A stretch of DNA of 64,000 nucleotides from Ophiura sarsii (taxonomy: Eukaryota; Echinodermata; Ophiuroidea; Amphilepidida; Ophiuridae). Below the pieces are notes generated by a model, which saw only the letters and a list, made by a program, of their open reading frames with translations, did not search any database and had not been told where the DNA came from. The DNA lies in contig CM069443.1 of the NCBI GenBank assembly GCA_035610835.1, forward strand, positions 85,868,690-85,932,689. The letters run 5' to 3'. The translations under genes and the position numbers were made by a program. Positions 21,770 to 45,895 of the stretch are shown here, one piece after another (position 1 is the first letter of the stretch; each line of letters opens with the position of its first letter).

Positions 21770-24700
21770 CTAGACATGACCTGTGATCGGAGATCACGAA
21801 TATTAGTCGGGTGTGTTACATGTTAACCCCTTCGAGTGGTAAATGGAGTAAATAAATACAGTTGAACCCCTAGTGACCTTTTCTTGACCTCTGACCCAAA
21901 ACTTGTAATTGACTTTTTTGCTTGGCTGATCAATGCGCACAAGAAAAAGGTAGTCCTGTCAAAATCGGAGCATGTTATAAGATTTTCACTTGTAAAGTTC
22001 AATGACCTCTAGTGACCCCGTTTGACATGTCACTTTTAGTGGAGAAGGACCCTATATGAACATGGATGAGAGGAATCTTTTGACTAATTCTGACAATCAT
22101 AGGTCATTTCCTCTCGGACAAGTAGCATTTTGAGTGAATGGAGTGAAAATTTACATTTTGACCCCTAGTGACCCCAAATATTTTTTGATTTTAAAAACAG
22201 AACTATTGTACATGCGTACGGTCAAAAGGAATATGTTGACCAATTCTGACGATCCTAGGTCATTTAACTAAATTGCAAATGCGTTTTTAGTGAAAATCAC
22301 GTTTTGACCCCTAGTGACCTTTTCTTGACCTCTGACCCAAAACTTGTAATTGACTTTTTTGCTTGGCTGATCAATGCGCACAAGAAAAAAGTAGTCTTGT
22401 TAAAATCGGAGCATGTCTTAAGATTTTCACCTGTATAGTTCAATGACCTCTAGTGACCTCGTGTAACATGTCACTTTTAGTGGAGAAGGACCCTATATGG
22501 ACATGCATAAGAGAAATCTTTTGACCAATTCTGACAATCATAGGTCATTATCTCTCGGACAAGTAGTATTTTGAGTGCGAGGAGTGAAAATGTACATTTT
22601 GACCCCTAGTGACCTTTTTTTGACCTTTGATCTTAACAATATGATTGACTTTTGTTCTTCTCTCATCAATGCCCACAAAATAAAAGAAACCCGGTCAAAA
22701 TCGGAGCATGCCTTATATTTTCCCTCTGTAAAGTTCAATGACCTCTAGTGACCCCGTTTGACATGTCACTTTTAGTGTGGAAGGACCCTATATGAACATT
22801 CATCCAAGGAATCTTTTGATTAATTCTGAGTATCATCAGTCATTTTCCCTCGGACAAGTAGGGTTTTGAGTGAATGGAGTAAAATTTACATTTTGACCCC
22901 TGGTGACCCCAAATGATTTTTAATTTTAAAAACCGTTCTTTTGTACATGCGTACGGTCAAAAGGAATATGTGGACTAATTTTGACGATCCTAGGTCATTT
23001 CACTAAATTGCAAATGCGTTTTAAGTGAAAATCACGTTTTGACCCCTAGTGACCCCTCTGTGACCTTTGACCCCTTATGCTTTTCAACCTAAGTAGTGGT
23101 GCACACAAGGGTTCTTATGACCAAATATGGTTAAAATCGGGTCAATGGTTACGGAGCTATAGGTCCCATGACAGAAGAAGAAAGATTTCTTGTTTTTGTC
23201 AACCAAATACAAAAACATACTAGACATGACCTGTGATCGGAGATCACGAATATTAGTCGGGTGTGTTACATGTTAACCCCTTCGAGTGGTAAATGGAGTA
23301 AATAAATACAGTTGAACCCCTAGTGACCTTTTCTTGACCTCTGACCCAAAACTTGTAATTGACTTTTTTGCTTGGCTGATCAATGCGCACAAGAAAAAGG
23401 TAGTCCCGTCAAAATCGATGCATGTTTTAAGATTTTCACCTGTAAAGTTCAATGACCTCTAGTGACCCCGTGTGACATGTCACTTTTAGTGGAGAAGGAC
23501 CCTATATGAACATGGATGAGAGGAACCTTTTGACTAATTCTGACAATCATAGGTCATTTCCTCTCGGACAAGTAGCATTTTGAGTGAATGGAGTGAAAAT
23601 TTACATTTTGACCCCTAGTGACCCCAAATATTTTTTGATTTTAAAAACCGAACTATTGTACATGCGTACGGTCAAAAGGAATATGTTGACCAATTCTGAC
23701 GATCCTAGGTCATTTCACTAAATTGCAAATGCGTTTTTAGTGAAAATCACGTTTTGACCCCTAGTGACCTTTTCTTGACCTCTGACCTAAAACTTGTAAT
23801 TGACTTTTTTGCTTGGCTGATCAATGCGCACATGAAAAAAGTAGTTTTGTTAAAATCGGAGCATGTCTTAAGATTTTCACCTGTATAGTTCAATGACCTC
23901 TAGTGACCTCGTGCAACATGTCACTTTTAGTGTAGAAGGACCCTATATGGACATGGATAAGAGGAATCTTTTGACTAATTCTGACAATCATAGGTCATTA
24001 TCTCTTGGACAAGTAGTATTTTGAGTGCGAGGAGTAAAAATGTACATTTTGACCCCTAGTGACCTTTTTTTGACCTTTGATCTTAACGGTATGATTGCCT
24101 TTTGTTCTTGTCTCATCAATGCCCACAAAATAAAAGAAACCCGGTCAAAATCGGAGCATGCCTTATATTTTCCCCCTGTAAAGTTCAATGACCCCTAGTG
24201 ACCCCGTTTGACATGTCACTTTTAGTGTGGAAGGACCCTATATGAACATTGATCCAAGGAATCTTTTGACTAATTATGAGTATCATCAGTCATTTTCCTT
24301 CGGACAAGTAGGGTTTTGAGTGAATGGAGTAAAATTTACATTTTGACCCCTAGTGACCCCAAATATTTTTTGATTTTAAAAACCGTTCTTTTGTACATGC
24401 GTACGACCAAAAGGAATATGTTGACCAATTCTGACGATCATAGGTCATTTCACTAAATTGTAAATGCGTTTTAAGTGAAAATCACGTTTTGACCCCTAGT
24501 GACCCCTATGTGACCTTTGACCCCTTATGCTTTTCAACCTGAGTAGTGGTGCACACAAGGGTTCTTATGACCAAATATGGTCAAAATCTGGTCAATGGCT
24601 ACGGAGCTATAGGTCCCATGACAGAAGAAGAAAGAAGAAACTAGACATGACCTGTGATCGGAGATCACGAATATTAGTCGGGTGTGTTACATGTTAACCC

Positions 24701-27700
24701 CTTCGAGTGGTAAATGGAGTAAATAAATACAGTTGAACCCCTAGTGACCTTTTCTTGACCTCTGACCCAAAACTTGTAATTGACTTTTTTGCTTGGCTGA
24801 TCAATGCGCACAAGAACAAGGTAGTCCCGTCAAAATCGGAGCATGTTTCAAGATTTTCACTTGTAAAGTTCAATGACCTCTAGTGACCCCGTGTGACATG
24901 TCACTTTTAGTGGAGAAGGACCCTATATGAACATGGATGAGAGGAACCTTTTGACTAATTCTGACAATCATAGGTCATTTCCTCTCGGACAAGTAGCATT
25001 TTGAGTGAATGGAGTGAAAATTTACATTTTGACCCCTAGTGACCCCAAATATTTTTTGATTTTAAAAACCGAACTATTGTACATGCGTACGGTCAAAAGG
25101 AATATGTTGACCAATTCTGACGATCCTAGGTCATTTCACTAAATTGCAAATGCGTTTTTAGTGAAAATCACGTTTTGACCCCTAGTGACCTTTTTTTGAC
25201 CTCTGACCCAAAACTTGTAATTGAATTTTTTGCTTGGCTGATCAATGCGCACAAGAAAAAAGTAGTCCCGTGAAAATCGGAGCATGTCTTAAGATTTTCA
25301 CCTGTATAGTTCAATGACCTCTAGTGACCTCGTGTGACATGTCACTTTTAGTGGAGAAGGACCCTATATGGACATGGATAAGAGGAATCTTTTGACTAAT
25401 TCTGACAATCATAGGTCATTATCTCTTGGACAAGTAGTATTTTGAGTGCGAGGAGTGAAAATGTACATTTTGACCCCTAGTGACCTTTTCTTGACCTTTG
25501 ATATTAACAATATGATTGACTTTTGTTCTTGTCTCATCAATGCCCACAAAATAAAAGAAACCCGGTCAAAATCGGAGCATGCGTTATATTTTCCCACTGT
25601 AAAGTTCAATGACCCCTAGTGACCCCGTTTGATATGTCACTTTTAGTGTGGAAGGACCCTATATGAACATTGATCCAAGGAATCTTTTGACTAATTCTGA
25701 GTATCATCAGTCATTTTCCCTCGGACAAGTAGGGTTTTGAGTGAATGGAGTAAAATTTACATTTTGACCCCTAGTGACCCCAAATGATTTTTAATTTTAA
25801 AAACCGTTCTTTTGTACATGCGTACGGTCAAAAGGAATATGTGGACCAATTTTGACGATCCTAGGTCATTTCACTAAATTGGAAATGCGTTTTAAGTGAA
25901 AATCACGTTTTGACACCTAGTGACCCCTGTGTGACCTTTGACCCCTTATGCTTTACAACCTGAGTAGTGGTGCACATAAGGGTTCTTATGACCAAATATG
26001 GTCAAAATCGGGTCAATGGTTACGGAGCTATAGGTCCCATGACAGGAGAAAGAAGAAGAAGAAGAAGACGAAGAAAGAAACAGGACGAATACAGTATATT
26101 AGTCGTTTCTCGACTAATATAAGAAGAAAGAAGAAAGAAACAGGACAAATACAGTATATTAGTCGTTTCTCGACTAATATAACTAGACATGACCTGTGAT
26201 CGGAGATCACGAATATTAGTCGGGTGTGTTACATGTTAACCCCTTCGAGTGGTAAATGGAGTAAATAAATACAGTTGAACCCCTAGTGACCTTTTCTTGA
26301 CCTCTGACCCAAAACTTGTATTTGACTTTTTTGCTTGGCTGATCAATGCGCACAAGAAAAAGGTAGTCCCGTCAAAATCGGAGCATGTTTTAAGATTTTC
26401 ACTTGTAAAGTTCAATGACCTCTAGTGACCCCGTGTGACATGTCACTTTTAGTGGAGAAGGACCCTATATGAACATGGATGAGAGGAACCTTTTGACTAA
26501 TTCTGACAATCATAGGTCATTTCCTCTCGGACAAGTAGCATTTTGAGTGAATGGAGTGAAAATTTACATTTTGACCCCTAGTGACCCCAAATATTTTTTG
26601 ATTTTAAAAACCGAACTATTGTACATGCGTACGGTCAAAAGGAATATGTTGACCAATTCTGACGATCCTAGGTTATTTCACTAAATTGCAAATGCGTTTT
26701 TAGTGAAAATCACGTTTTGACCCCTAGTGACCTTTTTTTGACCTCTGACCCAAAACTTGTAATTGACTTTTTTGCTTGGCTGATCAATGCGCACAAGAAA
26801 AAAGTAGTCTTGTTAAAATCGGAGCATGTCTTAAGATTTTCATTTGTATAGTTCAATGACCTCTAGTGACCTCGTGTAACATGTCACTTTTAGTGTAGAA
26901 GGACCCTATATGGACATGGATAAGAGGAATCTTTTGACCAATTCTGACAATCATAGGTCATTATCTCTTGGACAAGTAGTATTTTGAGTGCGAGGAGTAA
27001 AAATGTACATTTTGACCCCTAGTGACCTTTTATTGACCTTTGATCTTAACGGTATTATTGACTTTTGTTCTTGTCTTATCAATGCCCACAAAATAAAAGA
27101 AACCCGGTCAAAATCGAAGCATGCCTTATATTTTTCCCCTGTAAAGTTCAATGACCTCTAGTGACCTCGTTTGACATGTCACTTTTAGTGTGGAAGGACC
27201 CTATATGAACATTGATAAAAGGAATCTTTTGACCAATTCTGAGTATCATCAGTCATTTTCCCTCGGACAAGTAGGGTTTTGAGTGAATGGAGTAAAATTT
27301 ACATTTTGACCCCTAGTGACCCCAAATGATTTTTAATTTTAAAAACCGTTCTTTTGTACATGCGTACGGTCAAAAGGAATATGTGGACCAATTTTGACGA
27401 TCCTAGGTCATTTCCCTAAATTGGAAATGCGTTTTAAGTGAAAATCACGTTTTGACCCCTAGTGACCCCTGTGTGACCTTTGACCCCTTATGCTTTACAA
27501 CCTGAGTAGTGGTGCACATAAGGGTTCTTATGACCAAATATGGTCAAAATCGGGTCAATGGTTACGGAGCTATAGGTCCCATGACAGAAAAAGAAAGATT
27601 TCTTGTTTTTGTCAACCAAATACAAAAACATACTAGACATGACCTGTGATCGGAGATCACGAATATTAGTCGGGTGTGTTACATGTTAACCCCTTCGAGT

Positions 27701-30700
27701 GGTAAATGGAGTAAATAAATACAGTTGAACCCCTAGTGACCTTTTCTTGACCTCTGACCCAAAACTTGTTATTGACTTTTTTGCTTGGCTGATCAATGCG
27801 CACAAGAAAAAGGTAGTCCCGTCAAAATCGGAGCATGTTTTAAGATTTTCACTTGTAAAGTTCAATGACCTCTAGTGACCCCGTGTGACATGTCACTTTT
27901 AGTGGAGAAGGACCCTATATGAACATGGATGAGAGAAACCTTTTGACTAATTCTGACAATCATAGGTCATTTCCTCTCGGACAAGTAGCATTTTGAGTGA
28001 ATGGAGTGAAAATTTACATTTTGACCCCTCGTGACCCCAAATATTTTTTGATTTTAAAAACCGAACTATTGTACATGCGTACGGTCAAAAGGAATATGTT
28101 GACCAATTCTGACGATCCTAGGTCATTTCACTAAATTGCAAATGCGTTTTTAGTGAAAATCACGTTTTGACCCCTAGTGACCTTTTCTTGACCTCTGACC
28201 CAAAACTTGTAATTGACTTTTTTGCTTGGCTGATCAATGCGCACAAGAAAAAAGTAGTCCCGTTAAAATCGGAGCATGTCTTAAGATTTTCACCTGTATA
28301 GTTCAATGACCTCTAGTGACCTCGTGTGACATGTCACTTTTAGTGGAGAAGGACCCTATATGGACATGGATAAGAGAAATCTTTTGACTAATTCTGACAA
28401 TTATAGGTCATAATCTCTTGGACAAGTAGTATTTTGAGTGCGAGGAGTGAAAATGTACATTTTGACCCCTAGTGACCTTTTTTTGACCTTTGATCTTAAC
28501 GGTATGATTGACTTTTGTTCTTGTCTCATCAATGCCCACAAAATAAAAGAAACCCGGTCAAAATCGGAGCATGCGTTATATTTTCCCCTTGTAAAGTTCA
28601 ATGACCCCTAGTGACCCTGTTTGACATGTCACTTTTAGTGTGGAAGGACCCTATATGAACATTGATCGAAGGAATCTTTTAACCAATTCTGAGTATCATC
28701 AGTCATTTTCCCTCGGACAAGTAGGGTTTTGAGTGAATGGAGTAAAATTTACATTTTGACCCCTAGTGACCCCAAATGATTTTTAATTTTAAAAACCGTT
28801 CTTTTGTACATGCGTACGGTCAAAAGGAACATGTTGACCAATTCTGAAGATCTTAAGTCATTTCACTAAATTGCAAATGCGTTTTAAGTGAAAATCACGT
28901 TTTGACCCCTAGTGACCCCTGTGTGACCTTTGACCCCTTATGCTTTTCAACCTGAGTAGTGGTGCACACAAGGGTTCTTATGACTAAATATGGTTAAAAT
29001 CGGGTCAATGGTTACGGAGCTATAGGTCCCATGACAGAAGAAGAAAGATTTCTTGTTTTTGTCAACCAAATACAAAAACATACTAGACATGACCTGTGAT
29101 CGGAGATCACGAATATTAGTCGGGTGTGTTACATGTTAACCCCTTCGAGTGGTAAATGGAGTAAATAAATACAGTTGAACCCCTAGTGACCTTTTCTTGA
29201 CCTCTGACCCAAAACTTGTAATTGACTTTTGCTTGGCTGATCAATGCGCACAAGAAAAAGGTAGTCCCGTCAAAATCGGAGCATGTTTTAAGATTTTCAC
29301 CTGTAAAGTTCAATGACCTCTAGTGACCCCGTGTGACATGTCACTTTTAGTGGAGAAGGACCCTATATGAACATGGATGAGAGGAACCTTTTGACTAATT
29401 CTGACAATCATAGGTCATTTCCTCTCGGACAAGTAGCATTTTGAGTGAATGGAGTGAAAATTTACATTTTGACCCCTAGTGACCCCAAATATTTTTTGAT
29501 TTTAAAAACCGAACTATTGTACATGCGTACTGTCAAAAGGAATATGTTGACCAATTCTGACGATCCTAGGTCATTTCACTAAATTGCAAATGCGTTTTTA
29601 GTGAAAATCACGTTTTGACCCCTAGTGACCTTTTCTTGACCTCTGACCCAAAACTTGTAATTGACTTTTTTGCTTGGCTGATTAATGCGCACAAGAAAAA
29701 AGTAGTTCCGTTAAAATCGGAGCATGTCTTAAGATTTTCACCTGTATAGTTCAATGACCTCTAGTGACCTCGTGTGACATGTCACTTTTTGTGCAGAAGG
29801 ACCCTATATGGACATGGATAAGAGGAATCTTTTGACTAATTCTGACAATCATAGGTCATTATCTCTTGGACAAGTAGTATTTTGAGTGCGAGGAGTAAAA
29901 ATGTACATTTTGACCCCTAGTGACCTTTTATTGACCTTTGATCTTAACGGTATGATTGACTTTTGTTCTTGTCTTATCAATGCCCCCAAAATAAAAGAAA
30001 CCCGGTCAAAATCGAAGCATGCCTTATATTTTTCATCTGTAAAGTTCAATGACCTCTAGTGACCTCGTTTGACATGTCACTTTTAGTGTGGAAGGACCCT
30101 ATATGAACATTGATCAAAGGAATCTTTTGACCAATTCTGAGTATCATCAGTCATTTTCCCTCGGACAAGTAGGATTTTGAGTGAATGGAGTAAAATTTAC
30201 ATTTTGACCCCTAGTGACCCCAAATGATTTTTAATTTTAAAAACCGTTCTTTTGTACATGCGTACGGTCAAAAGGAATATGTGGACCAATTTTGACGATC
30301 ATAGGTCATTTCACTAAATTGCAAATGCGTTTTTAGTAAAAATCACGTTTTGACCCCTAGTGACCCCTGTGTGACCTTTGACCCCTTATGCTTTTCAACC
30401 TGAGTAGTGGTGCACATAAGGGTTCTTATGACCAAATATGGTCAAAATCGGCTCAACGGTTACGGAGCTATAGGTCCCATGACAGAAAAAGAAGAAGAAA
30501 CAGGACGAATACAGTATATTAGTCGTTTCTCGACTAATATAACTAGACATGACCTGTGATCGGAGATCACGAATATTAGTCGGGTGTGTTACATGTTAAC
30601 CCCTTCGAGTGGTAAATGGAGTAAATAAATACAGTTGAACCCCTAGTGACCTTTTTTTGACCTCTGACCCAAAACTTGTAATTGACTTTTTTGCTTGGCT

Positions 30701-33700
30701 GATCAATGCGCACAAGAAAAAGGTAGTCCCGTCAAAATCGGAGCATGTTTTAAGATTTTCACCTGTAAAGTTCAATGACCTCTAGTGACCCCGTGTGACA
30801 TGTCACTTTTAGTGGAGAAGGACCCTATATGAACATGGATGAGAGGAACCTTTTGACTAATTCTGACAATCATAGGTCATTTCCTCTCGGACAAGTAGCA
30901 TTTTGAGTGAATGGAGTGAAAATTTACATTTTGACCCCTAGTGACCCCAAATATTTTTTGATTTTAAAAACCGAACTATTGTACATGCGTACGGTCAAAA
31001 GGAATATGTTGACCAATTCTGACGATCCTAGGTCATTTCACTAAATTGCAAATGCGTTTTTAGTGAAAATCACGTTTTGACCCCTAGTGACCTTTTCTTG
31101 ACCTCTGACCCAAAACTTGTAATTGACTTTTTTGCTTGGCTGATCAATGCGCACAAGAAAAAAGTAGTCTTGTTAAAATCGGAGCATGTCTTAAGATTTT
31201 CACCTGTATAGTTCAATGACCTCTAGTGACCTCGTGTAACATGTCACTTTTAGTGTAGAAGGACCCTATATGGACATGGATAAGAGGAATCTTTTGACCA
31301 ATTCTGACAATCATAGGTCATTATCTCTTGGACAAGTAGTATTTTGAGTGCGAGGAGTAAAAATGTACATTTTGACCCCTAGTGACCTTTTATTGACCTT
31401 TGATCTTAACGGTATGATTGACTTTTGTTCTTGTCTCATCAATGCCCACAAAATAAAAGAAACTCGGTCAAAATCGAAGCATGCCTTATATTTTCCCTCT
31501 GTAAAGTTCAATGACCTCTAGTGACCTCGTTTGACATGTCACTTTTAGTGTGGAAGGACCCTATATGAACATTGAACAAAGGAATCTTTTGACCAATTCT
31601 GAGTATCATCAGTCATTTTCCCTCGGACAAGTAGGGTTTTGAGTGAATGGAGTAATATTTACATTTTGACCCCTAGTGACCCCAAATGATTTTTAATTTT
31701 AAAAACCGTTCTTTTGTACATGCGTACGGTCAAAAGGAACATATTGACCAATTCTGAAGATCCTAGGTCATTTCACTAAATTGCAAATGCGTTTTAAGTG
31801 AAAATCACGTTTTGACCCCTAGTGATCCCTCTGTGACCTTTGACCCCTTATGCTTTTCAACCTGAGTAGTGGTGCACACAAGGGTTCTTATGACAAAATA
31901 TGGTTAAAATCGGGTCAATGGTTACGGAGCTATAGGTCCCATGACAGAAGAAGAAAGATTTCTTGTTTTTGTCAACCAAATACAAAAACATACTAGACAT
32001 GACCTGTGATCGGAGATCACGAATATTAGTCGGGTGTGTTACATGTTAACCCCTTCGAGTGGTAAATGGAGTAAATAAATACAGTTGAACCCCTAGTGAC
32101 CTTTTCTTGACCTCTGACCCAAAACTTGTAATTGACTTTTTTGCTTGGCTGATCAATGCGCACAAGAAAAAAGTAGTCTTGTCAAAATCGGAGCATGTCT
32201 TAAGATTTTCACCTGTATAGTTCAATGACCTCTAGTGACCTCGTGTGACATGTCACTTTTAGTGGAGAAGGACCCTATATGGACATGGATAAGAGGAATC
32301 TTTTGACTAATTCTGACAATCATAGGTCATTATCTCTTGGACAAGTAGTATTTTGAGTGCGAGGAGTGAAAATGTACATTTTGACCCCTAGTGACCTTTT
32401 CTTGACCTTTGATCTTAACAGTATGTTTGACTTTTGTTCTTGTCTCATCAATGCCCACAAAATAAAAGAAACCCGGTCAAAATCGGAGCATGTGTTATAT
32501 TTTCCCACTGTAAAGTTCAATGACCCCTAGTGACCCTGTTTAACATGTCACTTTTAGTGTGGAAGGACCCTATATGAACATTGATACAAGGAATCTTTTG
32601 ACCAATTCTGAGTATCATCAGTCATTTTCCCTCGGACAAGTAGGGTTTTGAGTGAATGGAGTAAAATTTACATTTTGACCCCTAGTGACCCCAAATGATT
32701 TTTAATTTTAAAAACCGTTCTTTTGTACATGCGTACGGTCAAAAGGAATATGTGGACCAATTTTGACGATCCTAGGTCATTTCACTAAATTGCAAATGCG
32801 TTTTAAGTGAAAATCACGTTTTGACCCCTAGTGACCCCTGTGTGACCTTTGACCCCTTATGCTTTTTAACCTGAGTAGTGGTGCACACAAGGGTTCTTAT
32901 GATCAAATATGGTTAAAATCGGGTCAATGGTTACGGAGCTATAGGTCCCATGACAGAAGAAGAAAGATTTCTTGTTTTTGTCAACCAAATACAAAAACAT
33001 ACTAGACATGACCTGTGATCGGAGATCACGAATATTAGTCGGGTGTGTTACATGTTAACCCCTTCGAGTGGTAAATGGAGTAAATAAATACAGTTGAACC
33101 CCTAGTGACCTTTTCTTGACCTCTGACCCAAAACTTGTAATTGACTTTTTTGCTTGGCTGATCAATGCGCACAAGAAAAAGGTAGTCCCGTCAAAATCGG
33201 AGCATGTTTTAAGATTTTCACCTGTAAAGTTCAATGACCTCTAGTGACCCCGTGTGACATGTCACTTTTAGTGGAGAAGGACCCTATATGAACATGGATG
33301 AGAGGAATCTTTTGACTAATTCTGACAATCATAGGTCATTTCCTCTCGGACAAGTAGCATTTTGAGTGAATGGAGTGAAAATTTACATTTTGACCCCTAG
33401 TGACCCCAAATATTTTTTGTTTTTAAAAACCTAACTATTGTACATGCGTACGGTCAAAAGGAATATGTTGACCAATTCTGACGATCCTAGGTCATTTCAC
33501 TAAATTGCGAATGCGTTTTTAGTGAAAATCACGTTTTGACCCCTAGTGACATTTTTTTGACCTCTGACCCAAAACTTGTAATTGACTTTTTTGCTTGGCT
33601 GATCAATGCGCACAAGAAAAAAGTAGTCCCGTCAAAATCGGAGCATGTCTTAAGATTTTCACCTGTATAGTTCAATGACCTCTAGTGACCTCGTGTGACA

Positions 33701-35888
33701 TGTCACTTTTAGTGGAGAAGGACCCTATATGGACATGGATAAGAGGAATCTTTTGACTAATTCTGACAATTATAGGTCATTATCTCTTGGACAAGTAGTA
33801 TTTTGAGTGCGAGGAGTGAAAATGTACATTTTGACCCCTAGTGACCTTTTCTTGACCTTTGATCTTAACAATATGATTGACTTTTGTTCTTGTCTCATCA
33901 ATGCCCACAAAATAAAAGAAACCCGGTCAAAATCGGAGCATGCGTTATATTTTCCCCCTTTAAAGTTCAATGACCCCTAGTGACCCTGTTTGACATGTCA
34001 CTTTTAGTGTGGAAGGACCCTATATGAACATTGATCCAAGGAATCTTTTGACTAATTCTGAGTATCATCAGTCATTTTCCCTCGGACAAGTAGGGTTTTG
34101 AGTGAATGGAGTAAAATTTACATTTTGACCCCTAGTGACCCCAAATGATTTTTAATTTTAAAAACCTTTCTTTTGTACATGCGTACGGTCAAAAGGAATA
34201 TGTGGACCAATTTTGACGATCCTAGGTCATTTCACTAAATTGGAAATAAGTTTTAAGTGAAAATCACGTTTTGACCCCTAGTGACCCCTGTGTGACCTTT
34301 GACCCCTTATGCTTTACAACCTGAGTAGTGGTGCACATAAGGGTTCTTATGACCAAATATGGTCAAAATCGGGTCAATGGTTACGGAGCTATAGGTCCCA
34401 TGACAGAAGAAGAAGAAAGAAGAAGAAAGAAGAAGAAACTAGACATGACCTGTGATCGGAGATCACGAATATTAGTCGGGTGTGTTACATGTTAACCCCT
34501 TCGAGTGGTAAATGGAGTAAATAAATACAGTTGAACCCCTAGTGACCTTTTCTTGACCTCTGACCCAAAACTTGTAATTGACTTTTTTGCTTGGCTGATC
34601 AATGCGCACAAGAAAAAGGTAGTTCCGTCAAAATCGGAGCATGTTTTAAGATTTTCACCTGTAAAGTTCAATGACCTCTAGTGACCCCGTGTGACATGTC
34701 ACTTTTAGTGGAGAAGGACCCTATATGAACATGGATGAGAGGAATCTTTTGACTAATTCTGCCAATCATAGGTCATTTCCTCTCGGACAAGTAGCATTTT
34801 GAGTGAATGGAGTGAAAATTTACATTTTGACCTCTAGTGACCCCAAATATTTATTGATTTTAAAAACCGAACTATTGTACATGCGTACGGTAAAAAGGAA
34901 TATGTTGACCAATTCTGACGATCCTAGGTCATTTCACTAAATTGCAAATGCGTTTTTAGTGAAAATCACGTTTTGACCCCTAGTGACCTTTTCTTGACCT
35001 CTGACCCAAAACTTGTAATTGACTTTTTTGCTTGGCTGATCAATGCGCACAAGAAAAAAGTAGTCCTGTCAAAATCGGAGCATGTCTTAAGATTTTCATC
35101 TGTATAGTTCAATGACCTCTAGTGACCTCGTTTGACATGTCACTTTTAGTGGAGAAGGACCCTATATGGACATGGATAAGAGACATCTTTTGACTAATTC
35201 TGACAATTATAGGTCATAATCTCTTGGACAAGTAGTATTTTGAGTGCGAGGAGTGAAAATGTACATTTTGACCCCTAGTGACCTTTTCTTGACCTTTGAT
35301 CTTAACGGTATGTTTGACTTTTGTTCTTGTCTCATCAATGCCCACAAAATAAAAGAAACCCGGTTAAAATCGGAGCATGCGTTATATTTTCCCCCTGTAA
35401 AGTTCAATGACCCCTAGTGACCCTGTTTGACATGTCACTTTTAGTGTGGAAGGACCCTATATGAACATTGATCCAAGGAATCTTTTGAATAATTCTGAGT
35501 ATCATCAGTCATTTTCCCTCGGACAAGTAGGGTTTTGAGTGAATGGAGTAAAATTTACATTTTGACCCCTAGTGACCCCAAATGATTTTTAATTTTAAAA
35601 ACCGTTCTTTTGTACATGCGTACGGTCAAAAGGAACATGTTGACCAATTCTGAAGATCCTAGGTCATTTCACTAAATTGCAAATGCGTTTTAAGTGAAAA
35701 TCACGTTTTGACCCCTAGTGACCCCTGTGTGACCTTTGACCCCTTATGCTTTTCAACCTGAGTAGTGGTACACACAAGGGTTCTTATGACCAAATATGGT
35801 TAAAATCGGGTCAATGGTTACGGAGCTATAGGTCCCATGACAGAAGAAGAAAGATTTCTTGTTTTTGTCAACCAAATACAAAAACATA
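21770..35888. repeat. Ten tandem type-2 units (about 1.0-1.54 kb each)
   Basis: Unit starts are 21770, 23220, 24641, 26183, 27633, 29083, 30543, 31993, 33002 and 34439. Lengths are mostly 1450 bp; exceptions are 1421, 1542, 1460, 1009 and 1437. All are in the same orientation, head to tail. They differ from each other more than type-1 monomers do. Tails vary from unit to unit: either GAAGAAAGATTTC with a TGTTTTTGT/ACAAAAACA inverted repeat, or a GAA-rich tract with or without the TATATTAGTCG hairpin (doubled at 26107-26180). Confidence 0.93.
31993..33001. repeat. Short type-2 unit: m1/m3 fusion with 441-bp deletion
   Basis: It begins as a normal m1, but after the shared stretch ending near 32168 it carries the m3-type variants (AAAAAAGTAGTC, later TGGACATGGATAAGAGG). 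The missing 441 bp equals the m1-to-m3 spacing in the neighbouring unit (30671 to 31112), as expected from recombination between the two homologous modules. Confidence 0.85.
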
Positions 35889-35926
35889 CTAGACATGACT
35901 GCGATCAGAGATCGCGGATATTAGTC
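35889..35926 (-). other. Probable 3' terminus of the autonomous Helitron
   Basis: CTAGACATGA, then hairpin arms GCGATC (35901-35906) and GATCGC (35910-35915) with loop AGA, then GGATATTAGTC. It is homologous to the type-2 ends but has GCGATC/GATCGC arms, and leads into unrelated sequence (AAGGGCTTTTGACC) instead of GGGTGTGTTACATG. Confidence 0.65.
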
Positions 35927-36056
35927 AAGGGCTTTTGACCTTGGTATATGGCTGTATGTTGTCAAAGGGCAATATAATCTTTTATCTTAAATTGTACTAT
36001 ATTTGATAATTGTTTTCTTAAATTTCAGCCCTGAAGTAGTCCAAAAAAATACGTTT

Positions 36057-36090
36057 TGACCCCTATTGACCTTTTCTTGACCGTTGACCC
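36057..36090. promoter_or_regulatory. Half-site composite within the Helitron's 3' region
   Basis: TGACCC, 4 nt, TGACCT, 5 nt, TGACCG, 1 nt, TGACCC. These are the same spacings as in the repeat modules, with diverged bases. It lies in otherwise unique DNA between the 3' terminus and the helicase gene, linking the satellite modules to the autonomous element. Confidence 0.5.
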
Positions 36091-36251
36091 CAAGGTCACG
36101 TTCGTGGTGATATGAACGTAAAGTGGGGGACGTTTTAATCCGTGAACCCCAACGCACGGAACCTTGAAAATGTCAAGGCTTTACTTGAAAGGTTACATAG
36201 ATTATTCCCAGAGATTAGCCCGTCTTGTTGCGGGCAAATCCCTTTCCAGCC

Positions 36252-36374
36252 AACATCGATCGTGGGCCCACAGTGGGCCCTTAATATTTTGTTCACTTTG
36301 GCCTGTTTCCGGGCCAAAGTGGACAAAATATTAAGGGTCCCATGAGGTCCCACTGTGGGCCCACGGTCGATGTT
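36252..36374. repeat. GC-rich fold-back (MITE-like hairpin)
   Basis: Left arm 36252-36303 and right arm 36311-36374 are inverted copies, both including TGGGCCCACAGTGGG (or complement), TTAATATTTTG and ACTTTGGCC, around a 7-nt centre. The right arm has about 10 extra bases. It lies between the Helitron 3' end and the helicase stop codon. Small ORFs on both strands reflect the inverted repeat. Confidence 0.8.
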
Positions 36375-36814
36375 CGTTAGCCTAAGCCTGAGATTCGGCC
36401 AGCCTTAAAATGTCACTATTAATTTACAAAATGACATTATTATTTGATTGCACTAAAATATCTATTAAAACAAATCACGTTCATAAATATAAATGGGAAT
36501 TACATTATATTGTGGTTCCTATATACAACTCTTTTAACTTTGTTGTTGTGAAACGCAAATTTTTAATCATTTACATTTCACGTTTATAAATATGTATACA
36601 TATTAATTTATATTATATTGTGGTTCCTATATACTACGGTTTAACACATTTTAATCAAACTATATATTATGGTTGCCATTTTGTTCAGATATAATTCCAG
36701 TACCCCTTGTGATATTGAATTGATAACAGATGTGTGCACTACAGGAAATATCTAGTAGTTCTTGGCTTTATTTGGAAGATGGAGAATTGCACAATTTCAT
36801 GAAAACGATGGTGA
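36375..36814. other. AT-rich 3' non-coding region of the Helitron
   Basis: No gene is seen. TTATATTGTGGTTCCTATAT recurs at about 36504 and 36615, each time after a CACGTT(C/T)ATAAATAT stretch, so the region holds a decayed ~110-bp direct repeat. Confidence 0.6.
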
Positions 36815-39328
36815 TTAATATTTTATTGCAATGAATACCGGGTCATGGTAGCTGTAGTATGTTGTTAATACTGAAGCTACATAGTGAGAAGGACGAGGCT
36901 TAATGTAGATGTGGTCAAGTAGTGTCCCTTTAGTAGTGGTTGGTTCAGATATTACTTGATGGTATTGCCTGAATGGAGGTAATATAGCATCCTTCAGTAA
37001 ATTGTGATTAAAGTCACCCGCAAACACGGCATAATCAGTATCTAGGACCTCAGTCTGTGCGGTAATGCTGTTCATTTCCATACAAAATGCGGTAGTGGTG
37101 GTTGTTACGGGTTTGTATACGGCAACTATCAATATGTTCGATGTTCCGTATGTTCTAATTGCAAGGGCATTGCAGTCTGTGCTTCTTACGAGGGGAAGGA
37201 CCATGTAGTTAACACTATTCTGAACATATATAGCTACGCCTTTACCTCTACCATAGTTAACTGTTTCAAGAGAATATCCGTCTATTAATATAGTGTTCTT
37301 GTCATCGTTATCTGTTAACCATGTCTCAGATAAACATATCACATGGGCTTTGCGGATCTCTGAATTCTTTCTCAGATCTTCAATATGGGCACGTAAGCTC
37401 TGTATGTTATGATGAGCGATAATGAAGTGTTTGTTGTGATCAACACTGACCAATGGATTGGCTCTGGAAACGTTGCAGGAAGGCATTTTGGCAGTTTCTT
37501 CGTCAATGTTTTCGTTACAAAAGATGCTTCGTGAATTAAAGTTCGTTAAATACAGTCCATTTAGAGTTGTGACTCGACTTAACGCTACGTAAGCCATTGC
37601 CGTCTTGAGACCTTTCATAGAAATGACAGCTTGTTCAGTCGTCTGTCCTTGTACTTTGTGAATGGTTACAGCCCATGCAAGTTTGAGAGGAACTTGTTCT
37701 CTCGTAATACTGTATGTCCGTCCTTTCATTTGGAATGTGTCTTTGCGAGGGACTATTGCTACACAGTCCGAATATTCTGGTGGCATACTTTGTGATCTCC
37801 TTGCATTCGCCCCAACTCGGTCATTGTCAAATTTAACGTACACAGCATTTGGCATATTTGGTGAATTGCCGAATTTGAATCCCTTGATAGTACCTGATAC
37901 ACCATTGCAGAGACCATCGGACACATCTACGTTAGTTATAAGCATTACTCGAGCATTCACTGCCAATTTAATTTCTGCCGCAAGATTCGTGTCTTTCCTG
38001 GACGTTTTGTGAGGTATGACATTGACTTTCAAAACTCTACCTCCCCTTTGGTCAACGTCAACAGCTGTTATGGTATGTTTCTCCGTATTCAAAGATTGAA
38101 GTTTTGCGTCATTGTGGGATTCAGCGTCTTTGTTGAGGTAGGACAAGTGCAACGCATCTGGAGGGGCTGGCAGTGTATTTGTGTCTACTATTCGTGATTT
38201 CAGCAGTGCCTCGTCTCCTTCATCAAGTGGTTTATCTTTGGTTCTGACACGGAGTCGGTTAAGCATTTGAGCAAACACAACGTCATCTTTTTGGCGCATT
38301 ATTTCTGTTAGTTCAACCACTTGAAAGCGAGGATTCCATATGTCTTTCAATGCTTGTTTATGTGGAAAGCACAGTGGTGTAGGAGGAAGTATCGGTGGTA
38401 ATTGATGGAAATCGCCTACTGCCAAGACGGAAATGTTACCAAACCATGTGGTATTGGAAGTGCCTTTGATTTGTTGCAGTCGTCCGTGTATGTATGATAG
38501 TTGTAGTGTGCTTACCATTGAAATCTCATCTATGATAAGAAGTTGTAGATGCTGGAACTTTGCACGCAATGTATTGACGGATTCTTCAGCAAGAGGTTTG
38601 TAGTCTGTTGTTGAGTTTGAGATGATTTTAAAGGCTGAGTTTATTGTTTGACCTGATATGTTGAATGCAGCTGTTCCTGTGTGAGCAACCAACAGCACTG
38701 TCACGTCATCAGCAGAATCTGTTATCGGTGCAAAAGCTTTTTGAGCGTGATATTTAATACATCGGATGACATGAGACTTGCCAGTGCCCGCACCTCCAGT
38801 TAAAAATATGTTGAATGGTTCAACTGTACCGTCTAGTGATTTATCATTGCACCATTTACTGATATGGTTGAAAAGTTGACGTTGCTCATTATTCAGCTGT
38901 CTCATCATAGAATGTGCTTGTTCCTCTGTCAATTCGGGGTTACGAGACTCAATTTGGCATCTCGGTAAATCTGTAGCTCTGTTTCGTGGCTGAAGGTCTG
39001 GTATATGTATTTCATCAAAGTCATCATCGGACTCACATGCTACATTTCGCATCAGTCTATCATTAAGACGTTGTTGTTCAGATTGTGGCGCAACAGCTGC
39101 CCAAGCATCTTCAATGTCTGCAGCTTCTTGTAGTGCTTCCCATGCATTATCGAGGTCATCTGTGGCAGGTTCAAAGTCCTTCATATTTTGTGCGACAATA
39201 TCTTTCACGGCTGCTCTTTTCCTGTTGACTGTTGTGACTCCAGTGAGGTGGTAACTTTGATATGTTACAAACTGATCGGGTTTGATGTTCTCATTGCGAT
39301 GAGGTAAATATAAACGAAGCATGTTCAT
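36815..39328 (-). CDS. Helitron Pif1-like SF1 helicase with C-terminal endonuclease/exonuclease/phosphatase domain
   Basis: An 837-residue protein expected to unwind DNA during rolling-circle transposition in the nucleus. Helicase motifs in order: Walker A GGAGTGKS (178-185), Walker B LLIIDEIS (263-270), GDFHQLPP (305-312), LTEIMRQ (340-346), WAVTIHKVQGQT (552-563) and VALSRVT (581-587). From about 635 an APE-like endonuclease follows: HNIQSL (640-645), CLSETW (665-670), GDFNHN (771-776), LLDHI (803-807) and a terminal SYHDP (826-830). The usual SDH motif reads SYH here. This reading frame is the same as that of the upstream Rep gene: after the Rep stop codon, six sense codons precede this ATG. 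The protein is therefore probably the C-terminal half of one Rep-helicase polypeptide, and the start is simply the first ATG after the stop. Several plus-strand ORFs over it are shadows. Confidence 0.93.
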   Translation of the reverse strand: MNMLRLYLPHRNENIKPDQFVTYQSYHLTGVTTVNRKRAAVKDIVAQNMKDFEPATDDLDNAWEALQEAADIEDAWAAVAPQSEQQRLNDRLMRNVACESDDDFDEIHIPDLQPRNRATDLPRCQIESRNPELTEEQAHSMMRQLNNEQRQLFNHISKWCNDKSLDGTVEPFNIFLTGGAGTGKSHVIRCIKYHAQKAFAPITDSADDVTVLLVAHTGTAAFNISGQTINSAFKIISNSTTDYKPLAEESVNTLRAKFQHLQLLIIDEISMVSTLQLSYIHGRLQQIKGTSNTTWFGNISVLAVGDFHQLPPILPPTPLCFPHKQALKDIWNPRFQVVELTEIMRQKDDVVFAQMLNRLRVRTKDKPLDEGDEALLKSRIVDTNTLPAPPDALHLSYLNKDAESHNDAKLQSLNTEKHTITAVDVDQRGGRVLKVNVIPHKTSRKDTNLAAEIKLAVNARVMLITNVDVSDGLCNGVSGTIKGFKFGNSPNMPNAVYVKFDNDRVGANARRSQSMPPEYSDCVAIVPRKDTFQMKGRTYSITREQVPLKLAWAVTIHKVQGQTTEQAVISMKGLKTAMAYVALSRVTTLNGLYLTNFNSRSIFCNENIDEETAKMPSCNVSRANPLVSVDHNKHFIIAHHNIQSLRAHIEDLRKNSEIRKAHVICLSETWLTDNDDKNTILIDGYSLETVNYGRGKGVAIYVQNSVNYMVLPLVRSTDCNALAIRTYGTSNILIVAVYKPVTTTTTAFCMEMNSITAQTEVLDTDYAVFAGDFNHNLLKDAILPPFRQYHQVISEPTTTKGTLLDHIYIKPRPSHYVASVLTTYYSYHDPVFIAIKY

Positions 39329-39346
39329 ATGGTATCTTTCACTATC

Positions 39347-42300
39347 TTACTTGACTGAAATGCGTGGATAACGAATGATTGCTGGTTTCCTCTCACGTTC
39401 TTTCATTTTCCCAAGATTATTTTGCAGTTGTATTGGGGAATTCCTCCGGCGTGTCCTTGCATCATGCTGTATGTCTTCATCTGCTTCGTCATCGGTCTCT
39501 TCTTGGTCTGAATCATTATTACGTGATGTTCTTGCCAGTTGATAATGTCTTGAGAAAAATGTGGCCATGCACATATCGTTGTACTTCTGTGTTGTTGGTC
39601 TGGATATGTATTTGTCAATTTGAGTTGGCATCCATACTTGATCACTCTTTCCGGCATTTGCTTGTAGAGTTTTAAGAGGCAGGGATATCTTTTGCCCATT
39701 CAAGTCTGTTTGCAAGAAGATGACATTGCGCGTACATTTTTTCAATGGCATACTACATGTCTGATAGATGGCACCCATAACACTGATTTCTCTGTTTTGA
39801 AGGTACGTGCTTCCTAGCTTTCTCAATTGAGATATAGCATCAACATTTCCTTCTGCTGCCTCTTTTTGTGCATTTTTGAGTAGGTCACCCATTTCTCTCT
39901 CGGCTTTGGTAATATATGATACCATGTACATGATGCAGGCGTATGGATCTAGCACATATTGAATATCCATGTTTCCATTCCAGCAACGTATTAGATCGGC
40001 GTTATAGTTATTGACCCATTGATCGTTGATACCACGTTTTAGATACATTGTCTTCCTCTTAGATAGCATCTCGAGGGATTCTTCAAATTCTGTTTGCGTG
40101 ATATTTGCTTGTCTGAGAACCTGATCAACTTCTTCAAAGTTGTGATCTTGACTTAAAATTAGTTCCCAAACAGACTCGAGTATTTGTCTTGCTTTGGCTT
40201 CTTTTTCTTTGAGAGCAGCTTGATCATCATTGTCATCTTCTCTTTGTTCATCTATTACCCCATTTGGTCTGCATATGAATGTTCGGTTACATGGCGGTTT
40301 CGGGAAAAGATATCGACATACGATCTTTGCTCTCAGTCTGTTTTTTCTGCATGATTTCGTGTGATTCTTGCTGTGCATTTGAACACTGGACACTATCTCG
40401 TACAATTCAGTATCAGTTTCGGGTGGCATTTCACATGTTATTTTGTCGTCTACAAATGTCACGATCTCATCATCGGGATCTACATCTAACTTTGGTGCAT
40501 CTTTTACCCATACAACCATATGTATATGCGGCCAACCTCTCTGCTGGAATTCAGTTCGGTAATAATAGTCGTCTACCTTTCCAATTGGCGCGGCTTTAGA
40601 CATTATGACGTCATTGATGAAAGATTGCGCTCTATTTTCAAACATTCTTGCTGCTGTAACTGGATTTGACATGATAATTCTACAGTGCTGGTCCCACGTC
40701 ATGTTTTTGTGTTGTTCAGCTGTCATTGGGGGTTTGCCTTGTTGTATAAGAATAGCGTTGTCTATTTCAATCCATCTACGATCGGCAGCACTAAATGTGA
40801 CAAAAAATGTGGGGATTCCTAGTTGTCGAACCATTGCAAACAAATCTCGTTTTGATTTCTCCCAATAGGCAGGTGTACCTCTTATACTAGCTAGAAATCT
40901 GTACCCTTCATCTCTTTTCATTATCTGCAGGACCTCGTCTCGATTTCGTAACATTGATGCAGTAATTTGTCTGCCACCTGCAAGCTGTGAGGAACCTATT
41001 CTTGTAGCAATAGATACATTTGAATGGATCATGTGGACTTCTGTTGCGTACAGAGCAAAGAATATATATTCAGGATTCCTTGCAAACCTATTATCAGCTG
41101 AGAATAACCTTGAGTTGAAGAATCGTGATGGCGAAACTTTAAGGTTTCTTTCTTCAATACATGTATTAGCACCATCAGGAAATTCCACAGGAAAACACTT
41201 GGCTTCCATGTTTAATACCTTTTCAGGAGTGTTACCTTCGCCTGGTGCTAGTGCTAGTATTGTAGTGTCGTGTTTGTCTGCTACGTACTGAGCAAAGTCA
41301 ACTGGATGTAAAAATGAGTAAAGAGGAGCCGATGTATTCGTTATGTCATCATTTTGATCTTGCTCTCCATCATTGTTTTCAAACTCATTCTCCTGAGATT
41401 GTGATGATTCTGGTACGATTTCCGATTCAGTGTTGTTTTCAATATTATCATTACCTGACACATCTTCCGATTGATCACCTTGAATCAATTGATCATCCAG
41501 CATGCCATTGAATTCTTCAAAATCTATATCAATATCTTCATACTCTGGGTTATTTTCCTTCAACCACAAGAGAGCTTGTCTTAATTTGTCCGGGTTTACA
41601 TCCTGACACATGTGATGTCCTTTGTATTGTAGTTTTCTTTTCAACTTTACTCTTATCAGGCTTTCATCCGATGGGAGTCTTGGTAGTGAATGAGCAGTGT
41701 TATTTATGTCAGCTTTAACACATACCACCTGTCCGTGTATTCCTTTTTGGCATCCTTTAATGAGTGAAATCATCTTCATGAATGGAATAGCAGGAGATAT
41801 GAGATGTCTTTCTAACATATTCAATTCGGACAGTTGAGGGGGCTGCTCGTGTAGATTCAGTTTGTTTACACAAGCTAATGTTGGTACAGTCAGTTTTGTT
41901 TTTATTGTTCGATGGCATGTTATACAAATCCATGCTTTACGCTCAGTATTACTATTGCTGGTCGGTAGTCTTTCGAACAGTGTTCCAGATGGCAGGGCTT
42001 TCCGTAACGCACGTTGATTGTACTTGTCTGTGTTTAATGCTATAACCTGTCGTTTGAAGTTAATACGCCGGCATATTTCGCACTTGTATATCAACTGTTG
42101 AGCGTGGCATGACTTCTGGAATTGTGCAATAACAGTTGCCATATTGGAATTCTTATTTACTCTATTGGTCTTTGTTTGTTGGATTTTTGCTCTTTTTATT
42201 ACAGGATCTGCATAAGATGTTTTTGATTGCTTGCGTTTTGCTTGCCCCTTTACAGGATCTGCATAGGATGCTTTTGATTGCTGGCGTTTTGCTTGCCCCT

Positions 42301-43477
42301 TTACAGGATCTGCATAGGATGTTTTGGATTGCTGACAATTGTGTTGCTTTTTTACAGGATCTGCATTTTTTCGTTTTGATTGCTGGAGTTTCCTTCTTTT
42401 TACATGTTGATATCCAAGTTTAGAATTTGCTCTCTTCTTAGCTAGCAGTTGATCGTGTTTTATTTGCGATTGATTTTTCGTAGCAGTTTGCTCTACGGGC
42501 ATCAAACCATTCCATGATGAACAACTCGGTTGATCTAAAGGTAATGGTATTGTCTGATCTAACTGATTGCAGAATTGTGGGGTTGAGACATTACAAATGT
42601 CTTCATTGGATTGCACTGTGATTGGTTGAATTGTTACCAGTGTCGATGATGGAAGGTTCAATGAATTGCACAAGCAGTGGATAAACTTATACAAGTTATG
42701 TATATCTGGAAAGAACAATGCTATTGCAGAGCCCTCTGAAGTACATAAGCCATTGTCATTTCTGGAATGCGAGTCAAAAAACAGGTATTGATCCGACTGA
42801 TCCTTGTACATAGCCATCATGTATGAAGTGCCCAAAATTAGAATATTCTTAGTATGATCAAGAAATGCTTGTTGCAATATAACATCCAATGGTTCAAAAG
42901 CACTACCAGGGGTTGAAGCAATTCTTCCGGTAACAGCAGTCTCATATTGTACATTATATATACGGTTTTCTAAAGCAAAAGTGGTAGGAAGTTGTTCAAT
43001 TTCCAGATATTTATCATCGGTGTTAAGTTCACCTTTGGCTTCCAATTCTGAAGCAATGATGTTGTACAGTTCATCTCCATTACGCAATACTTCATCGATA
43101 TCCTTTTGCAACAGTGTATCAAATTTCTCGTCAATTTCACATAACATTACAAGTGAATTACATGGACATTGGCGACCACTTGATTCTTCTGAAAATTGGT
43201 TATCACCTTGGTTAAAATGTCCCTGAACCTTCCTTGAAAACACCACTTCATCAATACTCGTTACATTTGGGATACATTGGATCACTTGAGCCTCGTGATT
43301 TCTGTTGGAAATGTTTGAGTTTGGAAATAGGGGAATCTCTTCTGAAGTAGACGCTAGTTCGACTCGTGCCTTTACTTTATGACGTGGCATTGAGGTGATC
43401 TGGTCGGCGTTTTTGTTGCTTTTGCGTGAAATGGATGAGAGTTTGGCAGCTCGTGATTTAGAGTTGCGGCGAGGCAT
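39347..43477 (-). CDS. Helitron Rep protein with N-terminal cysteine-protease-like domain
   Basis: A 1376-residue protein. Residues ~95-275 resemble a papain-fold cysteine protease of the C76/OTU-like type: GRQCPCN (101-107, candidate Cys104) and FFDSHSRN (233-240, Asp235 and His237). A Lys-rich linker (~360-437) has a basic KRRK and four 17-residue repeats ending YADPV or ADPV. Paired CxxC motifs follow at 465-468 and 518-521, then a conserved region with LISPAIPFMKM (559-569) and an acidic stretch (650-712). The Rep nuclease spans ~780-1195: RLFSADNRFARNP, RGTPAYW, the HUH motif GWPHIHM (981-987) and paired tyrosines Tyr1184 and Tyr1188 (YMVSYITK). Cysteines at 1043, 1054 and 1063 fit the usual zinc-binding part. 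Rep nicks and joins single-stranded DNA at the element ends. The start is the ATG at 43477; upstream lies a minisatellite. The stop codon is premature relative to a full Rep-helicase. Confidence 0.93.
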   Translation of the reverse strand: MPRRNSKSRAAKLSSISRKSNKNADQITSMPRHKVKARVELASTSEEIPLFPNSNISNRNHEAQVIQCIPNVTSIDEVVFSRKVQGHFNQGDNQFSEESSGRQCPCNSLVMLCEIDEKFDTLLQKDIDEVLRNGDELYNIIASELEAKGELNTDDKYLEIEQLPTTFALENRIYNVQYETAVTGRIASTPGSAFEPLDVILQQAFLDHTKNILILGTSYMMAMYKDQSDQYLFFDSHSRNDNGLCTSEGSAIALFFPDIHNLYKFIHCLCNSLNLPSSTLVTIQPITVQSNEDICNVSTPQFCNQLDQTIPLPLDQPSCSSWNGLMPVEQTATKNQSQIKHDQLLAKKRANSKLGYQHVKRRKLQQSKRKNADPVKKQHNCQQSKTSYADPVKGQAKRQQSKASYADPVKGQAKRKQSKTSYADPVIKRAKIQQTKTNRVNKNSNMATVIAQFQKSCHAQQLIYKCEICRRINFKRQVIALNTDKYNQRALRKALPSGTLFERLPTSNSNTERKAWICITCHRTIKTKLTVPTLACVNKLNLHEQPPQLSELNMLERHLISPAIPFMKMISLIKGCQKGIHGQVVCVKADINNTAHSLPRLPSDESLIRVKLKRKLQYKGHHMCQDVNPDKLRQALLWLKENNPEYEDIDIDFEEFNGMLDDQLIQGDQSEDVSGNDNIENNTESEIVPESSQSQENEFENNDGEQDQNDDITNTSAPLYSFLHPVDFAQYVADKHDTTILALAPGEGNTPEKVLNMEAKCFPVEFPDGANTCIEERNLKVSPSRFFNSRLFSADNRFARNPEYIFFALYATEVHMIHSNVSIATRIGSSQLAGGRQITASMLRNRDEVLQIMKRDEGYRFLASIRGTPAYWEKSKRDLFAMVRQLGIPTFFVTFSAADRRWIEIDNAILIQQGKPPMTAEQHKNMTWDQHCRIIMSNPVTAARMFENRAQSFINDVIMSKAAPIGKVDDYYYRTEFQQRGWPHIHMVVWVKDAPKLDVDPDDEIVTFVDDKITCEMPPETDTELYEIVSSVQMHSKNHTKSCRKNRLRAKIVCRYLFPKPPCNRTFICRPNGVIDEQREDDNDDQAALKEKEAKARQILESVWELILSQDHNFEEVDQVLRQANITQTEFEESLEMLSKRKTMYLKRGINDQWVNNYNADLIRCWNGNMDIQYVLDPYACIMYMVSYITKAEREMGDLLKNAQKEAAEGNVDAISQLRKLGSTYLQNREISVMGAIYQTCSMPLKKCTRNVIFLQTDLNGQKISLPLKTLQANAGKSDQVWMPTQIDKYISRPTTQKYNDMCMATFFSRHYQLARTSRNNDSDQEETDDEADEDIQHDARTRRRNSPIQLQNNLGKMKERERKPAIIRYPRISVK
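42201..42405 (-). repeat. 51-bp coding minisatellite in the Rep linker
   Basis: ACAGGATCTGCAT recurs at 42201, 42252, 42303 and 42354, exactly 51 bp (17 codons) apart, preserving the frame. The repeat encodes QSKxSYADPVKGQAKR-like units. The fourth copy has diverged (KRKNADPVKK). Confidence 0.92.
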
Positions 43478-43484
43478 TTTCGCT

Positions 43485-44133: not shown

Positions 44134-44135
44134 TA

Positions 44136-44670: not shown

Positions 44671-44950
44671 GGGGAGAGAGAAGGTACAGGCAGACAGACA
44701 CAAGACCACGCCAACACCAAACAAACATAAAAACCAACATAATGTACATAAAAGGGGTGGGAAAACAGAGGTAATGAATTAAAGAAAAAAGAAAAAAATG
44801 GTTAGTACGTTATTCAATTTTACAATTATAAATGTTATTTATATAACGTGATAATTAGTCTGACATATTTTCGATTTGATTAGCAGTACGAGGACTTTCT
44901 TTCGTTGTTCATTTCGATTATGACCTGAGTGATGGACGTTTATGCAATAT
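44671..44950. other. AT-rich sequence, no gene seen
   Basis: It contains CAGACAGACACAAGACC and an A-rich stretch, then unremarkable AT-rich DNA. The Helitron 5' end could lie here, but no terminus could be recognised. Confidence 0.5.
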
Positions 44951-45726: not shown

Positions 45727-45895
45727 CACTATGAAAACTCTCTCATTGCTTGCGTGGTAGATTTCGATCGCGACAGGAGCATGCGCAGATGCGATTTTTG
45801 TGTAAGTGGTCTGTGATTTTGTCAATATTATATTTTTACTGTGATTTGTCGATCTGCATTAAATGCAAAAAGTAACAACGCCCCCGGCTGGACTC

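Follow-up and report, generated by a model that had tools for sequence, protein, structure and literature searches.

Serial insertion into resident 5′ leaders as the probable origin of a head-to-tail Helentron array in Ophiura sarsii

The DNA analysed here is a stretch of 64,000 nt from the ophiuroid Ophiura sarsii (the window; contig CM069443.1, termed C3, C3:85868690-85932689). The entire window is a single head-to-tail array with its element sense on the minus strand, and a coding element of the Helentron type lies within it. We propose, with a probability of roughly 0.78, that the window is part of a stack of autonomous and non-autonomous Helentron-family elements that grew by serial insertion into the 5′ leaders of resident elements. 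Serial self-insertion accounts for the order of the units better than concatemers or tandem duplication alone, and it is preferred because the inserts interrupt the TTC microsatellite of a resident and the cut-off piece returns on the far side. Satellite arrays of up to hundreds of kilobases are here head-to-tail Helentron stacks with intact-looking autonomous copies inside. Genome-wide searches covered the 1.57-Gb assembly (748 contigs), and the genome-wide counts of ends are of exact matches only, in an assembly whose arrays may be incomplete.

The array is laid out as follows, in window coordinates:

1..15539, minus strand: almost identical type-1 satellite monomers of ~1.08 kb whose 5′ end carries palindrome b
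18515..21769, minus strand: three type-1 monomers, with which the array resumes past insertion A
21770..35888, minus strand: type-2 (HINE-like) units of ~1.0-1.5 kb, with 295-bp repeats between the 5′ end and a 3′ hairpin-CTAG
35889..55525, minus strand: the coding Helentron as an array unit, border T included, joined to its neighbours at both ends
55578..64000, minus strand: more type-2 units, the final one cut by the window end
59889-61793 and 61794-63492, minus strand: two type-2 units of the AAGC 3′-end subtype

Read in the element sense, a type-2 unit consists of a palindrome of the form (T)TATATTAGTCG-loop-CGACTAATATA, a leader, a TTC microsatellite, 295-bp repeats, CGACTAATAT, a 6-bp hairpin, a spacer and CTAG; a length of 1450 bp is shared by 8 of the window's 17 complete non-coding type-2 units. 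No 3′ hairpin or CTAG was seen in the type-1 monomers of 1..15539. All 19 hairpin-CTAG unit ends of the window lie on one strand (0 on the reverse strand), as do all 54 in the 144 kb of C3 around it. The preliminary description of this DNA had reported four tails beyond CTAG, and this was borne out: the 19 window ends are followed by a hairpin termed c (9), by palindrome a (5), by bare microsatellite (4) or by the type-1 palindrome b (1).

The evidence for serial insertion comes from units that are split by others:

15540..18461, minus strand: insertion A, a pair of type-2 units (the c-tailed 15540 and the a-tailed 16990) within the microsatellite of a type-1 monomer
18462..18514, minus strand: cut-off 5′ end of the monomer split by insertion A, carrying the type-1-specific palindrome b
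24641..26122, minus strand: insertion B (likely), one type-2 unit within the microsatellite of unit 23220-24640
26123..26182, minus strand: detached 5′ end ascribed to the host unit of insertion B
34439..55525, minus strand: insertion C (likely), a c-tailed type-2 unit (34439-35888) and the coding Helentron, within the microsatellite of host unit 33002-34438
55526..55577, minus strand: detached 5′ end ascribed to the host unit of insertion C

Insertion A is the clearest case, because its two units split a type-1 monomer that resumes afterwards. The monomer from 14503 breaks off within its GAA/TTC microsatellite at 15539, and the flanks 14503-15539 and 18462-18514 rejoin into one type-1 monomer end. 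The loop of 18462-18514 is found in type-1 monomers and not in the type-2 units here. Inserts start at CTAG and finish at a 5′ palindrome, with several different junction positions within the microsatellite. Over the 144 kb of C3, 20 of the 54 CTAGACAT ends stand behind a palindrome, 21 behind c and 13 behind bare microsatellite (one assigned by eye), and there are 11 cut-off leaders. An array on contig C1, taken with its edge (62 kb, 31 ends), gave 9, 14 and 8, respectively, with eight cut-off leaders.

Tandem duplication after a single insertion had been offered in the preliminary description as another route to such arrays. We consider it improbable that the whole array goes back to a few insertions followed by unequal crossing-over or tandem duplication, and as a sole cause this route is ruled out by insertion A, which interrupts the type-1 array, together with a test of neighbouring units. 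Type-2 neighbours were no more alike than non-neighbours [14 units; observed value reached in 8119/10000 shuffles; units 31993, 59889 and 61794 (length or subtype), the coding unit and the cut unit 63493 left out], and tail type did not track similarity of the bodies (same minus different 0.08; reached in 2466/10000 shuffles). The several junction positions in the microsatellite likewise speak against duplication. In its favour, a 4.3-kb block of three type-2 units (C3:85937832-85942125) has a direct repeat right behind it at 99.9% identity, and the type-1 monomers hardly differ from one another, apart from the more diverged final one ahead of 21769. For these monomers tandem duplication or unequal exchange is likely; they look as if exchange, or replication lacking a terminator, had made them uniform. 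Monomer lengths at 425-15539 recur as 1087, 1081, 1081 and 1081, a four-monomer period that is set by microsatellite length and that single-base differences do not clearly track.

Growth by rolling-circle concatemers had also been suggested. Replication would then pass the 3′ terminator repeatedly and the multimers would be inserted in one event, which would explain blocks of the order c-a and c-c-a. The evidence that bears on this concerns the second 5′ end, c, which was found only at junctions:

16955..16989, minus strand: an example of the junction-only 5′ end c
23219, 27632, 29082, 31992, 33001, 35888, 58439 and 59888, minus strand: termini of eight further c ends

All cut-off leaders of the two arrays (19/19) stand behind an a or b palindrome and none behind c. 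When cut-off leaders were compared with CTAG-joined ends, the numbers were 19 and 29 for a but 0 and 36 for c (Fisher p=6.6e-6; left out were 18 palindromes ahead of type-1 monomers and three others). All 576 exact copies of c are internal, and tandem arrays of Helitrons are explained by concatemers in the excerpts of the literature covered here. However, the true junction of a concatemer would be CTAG to an a end rather than to c, c adjoins at least four 3′-end subtypes and so is not one copied junction, and adjacent units are no more alike than others. We therefore regard concatemers as a somewhat unlikely origin; they are not needed for the main junctions, for which insertion into the residents' 5′ leaders is the direct evidence.

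Two simple accounts of c were set aside. A single fixed dimer junction was rejected, as c adjoins several 3′-end subtypes; a plain alternative 5′ end found no support, as no exact copy lacks CTAGA, though c folds as a hairpin. By comparison, 918 of the 3669 exact copies of the a end are joined to CTAGA. It seems either that c units are mobile solely in the wake of another unit or that they join nothing but CTAG ends. They may travel only behind an a-ended unit, because 0/19 cut-off leaders follow c and 576/576 c ends are internal. In one further case (L045:6716-6754) a c end is linked to a 3′ end of another kind (CTAGAATT..., GTCGTC/GACGAC hairpin) whose subterminal inverted repeat (subTIR) is unchanged.

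The coding element was described at first as an autonomous Helitron adjacent to the satellite units. It is instead a unit within the array, joined at both ends, and its 5′ end had been absent from that description. In the element sense it comprises a 5′ palindrome, satellite repeats (54283-55476), a unique region, the Rep-helicase-endonuclease open reading frames (ORFs) and a 3′ subTIR-hairpin-CTAG. The relevant features are:

39347..43477, minus strand: Rep ORF, 1376 aa, with DUF6570 and Helitron_like_N; an HIH motif is visible in the translation
36815..39328, minus strand: helicase ORF, 837 aa, with a PIF1-type helicase and a C-terminal Exo_endo_phos endonuclease, in the same frame as the Rep ORF
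35889..35927, minus strand: 3′ end, with subTIR GACTAATAT, 6-bp hairpin, 8-nt spacer and CTAG
55498..55524, minus strand: 5′ end a, with palindromic subTIR TATATTAGTCG-AGAAA-CGACTAATATA; fold z −4.6

Domain matches were Helitron_like_N (E=3.5e-33), PIF1 (2.7e-23) and Exo_endo_phos (1.5e-8; residues 640-814 of the helicase ORF). A single in-frame stop divides the Rep and helicase ORFs in the window copy and is absent from two other copies compared. About 30 kb further on, a second coding unit of the same array (C3:85953864-85969758, 15.9 kb) has one open frame of 2213 aa in which Rep-helicase and endonuclease are fused, and it is 98.4% identical to the window copy over the 3′ 6.4 kb. Among named proteins, those closest to the helicase come from the brittle star Amphiura filiformis, at ~69% across the full length of the part queried. 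Viral contigs had no match to three exact DNA patterns and gave only three protein matches, at 26-28%.

We conclude that the coding element is a Helentron and not a canonical Helitron, because of its endonuclease domain and subterminal inverted repeats, as judged from the sequence. It combines Rep and a PIF1 helicase, a fused C-terminal endonuclease, subterminal inverted repeats that are palindromic at the 5′ end, and a 3′ stem-loop. The 5′ TC and A-T target of Helitron1 are not found: the 5′ end reads TATATTAG or TTATATTAG and the targets are TTC, while the 3′ end (CTAG) is of the CTRR type. The canonical model with A/T flanks was rejected, as the 5′ end and the T-rich (TTC) leaders that serve as targets differ from it. 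The type-2 units are non-coding, share their ends with the Helentron and hold central repeats, as HINEs do.

That non-autonomous arrays of rolling-circle type share termini with a coding partner was upheld. At the 3′ end of the coding element, CTAG occupies 35889-35892, preceded on the minus strand by a GCGATC-TCT-GATCGC hairpin and an 8-nt spacer and followed by T (35888). This layout of hairpin, spacer and CTAG, claimed earlier for the coding element and the type-2 units, is common to 19/19 window unit ends, the coding element included. Its last 45 nt match the type-2 units at 38/47 and the subtype of 59889 and 61794 at 40/46 and 40/47; among 1937 random 45-mers from the window, the highest value was 62%. 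The a-ended units 16990, 24641 and 29083 carry exactly the 27-nt 5′ palindrome of the coding element. Across five 3′-end subtypes the six stem pairs are 100% paired, 4/6 being changed on both sides, a covariation score reached by 0/500 shuffles (five sequences only). Compared with shuffles, the fold of the 3′ end alone was better for the coding end (z −2.8) and not for the type-2 end (z −0.5). A chance control, in which CTAGA had to precede any 6-bp stem with a loop of 3 nt, gave 19 matches on the element strand and 2 on the other in the window, and 54 and 7, respectively, in the 144 kb. The subTIR is ATATTAGTCG at the 5′ end (fold z −4.6 and −7.6), and CGACTAATAT (type-2) or TGACTAATAT (coding) at the 3′ end; 11-bp identity, a published rule, holds between the coding and type-2 5′ ends, not between the 5′ and 3′ copies.

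Could the coding Helentron be unrelated to the array and merely have inserted there, its ends shared by coincidence or recombination? Over the last 60 nt it agrees with the type-2 units at 46/64, which falls short of the 80% subfamily rule in the covered part of Thomas et al. 2014; because of this value, it counts as a subfamily other than the type-2 units. Against such independence, identity to type-2 units reaches 95% in its first (5′) kilobase, the 27-nt palindrome is the same, the array's second coding unit is built alike, and 20/20 sampled coding copies share the 3′ end. An unrelated element is thus very improbable.

Other coding copies of the genome carry the same ends. From 1113 first-look candidates, 54 Rep-helicase matches were scored, all at 99-100% identity and 52 of them end to end. 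Stop-to-stop frames of >2,100 aa were present in 46/54, one of the 46 being marked with an internal stop, and 6/54 fall among the listed unit ends on C1 at 46.8-47.2 Mb. The pattern used to search for unit ends had four bases before TG, so the coding-type end was missed; one coding-type variant was counted apart. Twenty coding copies were picked from the 54 for their 3′ flanks. The same 38 nt formed the 3′ end in 19 of them and one had CTGG; T followed directly in all 20. In all but one (19/20) the neighbouring DNA is a 5′ end or leader from a related element: TTC microsatellite running on into a unit body (7) or an a palindrome (1), an a end (4), a c end (4), other leader positions (2; L062, L071) and an apparent second-family leader (1; L074), with unassigned DNA in the remaining one (L073). 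By our reading there are about ten different junction positions. Six further coding copies with the exact 3′ end, the window's included, also lie at family ends (microsatellite 2, c 2, a 2).

Single copies with clean ends, proposed at the outset as a check, were found, and none of the 20 sampled coding copies had the unrelated 3′ end that would have counted against the first interpretation. Of the 3669 a ends, fifteen dispersed ones on C1 were taken from the first 100 listed and inspected by eye over ~90 nt: 11 adjoin DNA without family sequence in view, two lie in second-family leaders and two behind diverged 3′ ends. The solo copy C1:37306292-37308035 (L038) has both ends. Since solo copies exist, the a and 3′ ends are real element ends. 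TTTGTTACT lies on both sides of L038, its upstream copy preceded by TCTAGT, as if these flanks had come from a short copy of the target or from the end of an older element. In L086 a dispersed a end stands directly behind a 3′ hairpin end without CTAG, a diverged tandem junction.

Several points weigh against growth by serial insertion. Transposition and its targeting are read here from the anatomy of the sequence. Single elements that carry doubled 5′ ends, of the kind suggested for Fusarium Helitrons, could also account for insertions B and C. Because T lies on both sides of the junction, the precise target step is ambiguous; targets are T-rich, and the 5′ search pattern included the border T, border Ts being assignable neither to element nor to target. 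Genome-wide, c is joined to CTAGA in 576/576 exact copies, a regularity not expected from plain leader targeting. The 20 coding copies were hand-picked, not random, four flanks were classed by eye, and array duplication may have made them partly copies of one event. Openers and closers on C3 are unequal (13 and 11), in part because of the 4.3-kb segmental duplication with 99.9% identity. In the 62 kb of C1 three palindromes have another neighbour, and some C1 ends are oppositely oriented (three '+' rows among the matches listed).

The anatomy suggests how serial insertion might be directed to leaders. The Rep protein would cut at T-T steps, and the T-rich sense strand of the leader (palindrome and TTC microsatellite) would act as the landing pad. 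If the target strand is the element's own sense strand, every insertion would take the same orientation. Each new 5′ end would be a fresh landing site, so that arrays are predicted to be able to extend themselves, and unequal exchange could then homogenise stretches such as the type-1 monomers. A broader model goes further and is tentative, slightly short of an even chance: the element's own 5′ leader would be its preferred landing site, megaarrays would grow by homing in a single orientation and keep dozens of intact autonomous copies, and c units, their 5′ end existing solely at junctions, would be obligate followers that cannot move without a copy ahead of them.

Some other features of the region were observed. 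A tRNA match (57.7 bits; 45879-45952, minus strand) inside the coding unit is flanked by two similar stretches. Repeats of 84 bp at 51197-52103 and 53150-53300 (minus strand) resemble, by eye, broken C2H2 zinc-finger repeats, perhaps a captured host fragment. Directly downstream of the helicase gene, an inverted repeat with arms of roughly 60 bp (36230-36380) resembles a small foldback element, also by eye. At the C1 array edge (L040-L041, C1:46831800-46833400) 5′ ends of a second Helentron family (ACCTTGATTTTTT subTIR) are stacked; both ends of that family carry another subTIR, with plan and CTAG unchanged.

How a mobile element turns into satellite DNA is an open question, for which replication concatemers, unequal exchange and repeated insertion are rival routes. 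Here split monomers give a readable order of events, which favours repeated self-insertion. As an autonomous source with an apparently intact gene sits in the array, the array-building process is open to testing. If the proposal is true, a homing transposon confined to its own array can be abundant yet mild for its host.

Helentron-borne satellites, tandem Helitrons and single self-insertions are known; the comparisons that follow refer to the excerpted parts of the sources. Helentrons encode a Rep-helicase with endonuclease and have a palindromic subTIR 2-4 nt from the 5′ end, a 3′ subTIR with stem-loop, and a T-T target, and HINEs, which are non-autonomous, derive from them and hold tandem repeats or microsatellites in their central part (Thomas et al. 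2014, PMC4067079). The O. sarsii elements resemble these in domain set, subTIRs, stem-loop and repeat-bearing non-autonomous derivatives but differ in their long same-orientation stacks of autonomous and non-autonomous copies and in the 3′ end CTAG. Mite families have subTIRs of 12-15 bp, 38-60 bp from the 3′ end (PMC4067079), whereas the match here is 10 bp (9/10 in the coding copy) and the type-2 3′ subTIR lies 30 nt from the end. In the Pacific oyster, Cg_HINE elements are Helentron-type carriers of satellite-like central repeats, and in the covered text none of ten autonomous Helentrons could be related to the HINEs of that study (PMC7492417); the central repeats are alike, but here an autonomous partner shares ends and repeats.

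Truncated centromeric Helitrons of plants form tandem arrays (Xiong et al. 2016, via PMC12628747, PMC7492417 and PMC5148889). Their inner copies are without 3′ ends, like type-1 here, whereas type-2 units retain 3′ ends and their split leaders indicate insertion, not concatemers. For arrays that arise by insertion into their members' own leaders and contain intact autonomous copies, no account was found in the covered portions of the open-access literature. The Fusarium FoHeli elements, of the Helitron2 type, have multiple 5′ termini ascribed to self-insertion, and one case of three tandem copies is described (PMC5148889). The cases there are few, whereas here 19 cut-off leaders occur in two arrays and intact-looking coding copies sit in their own leaders.

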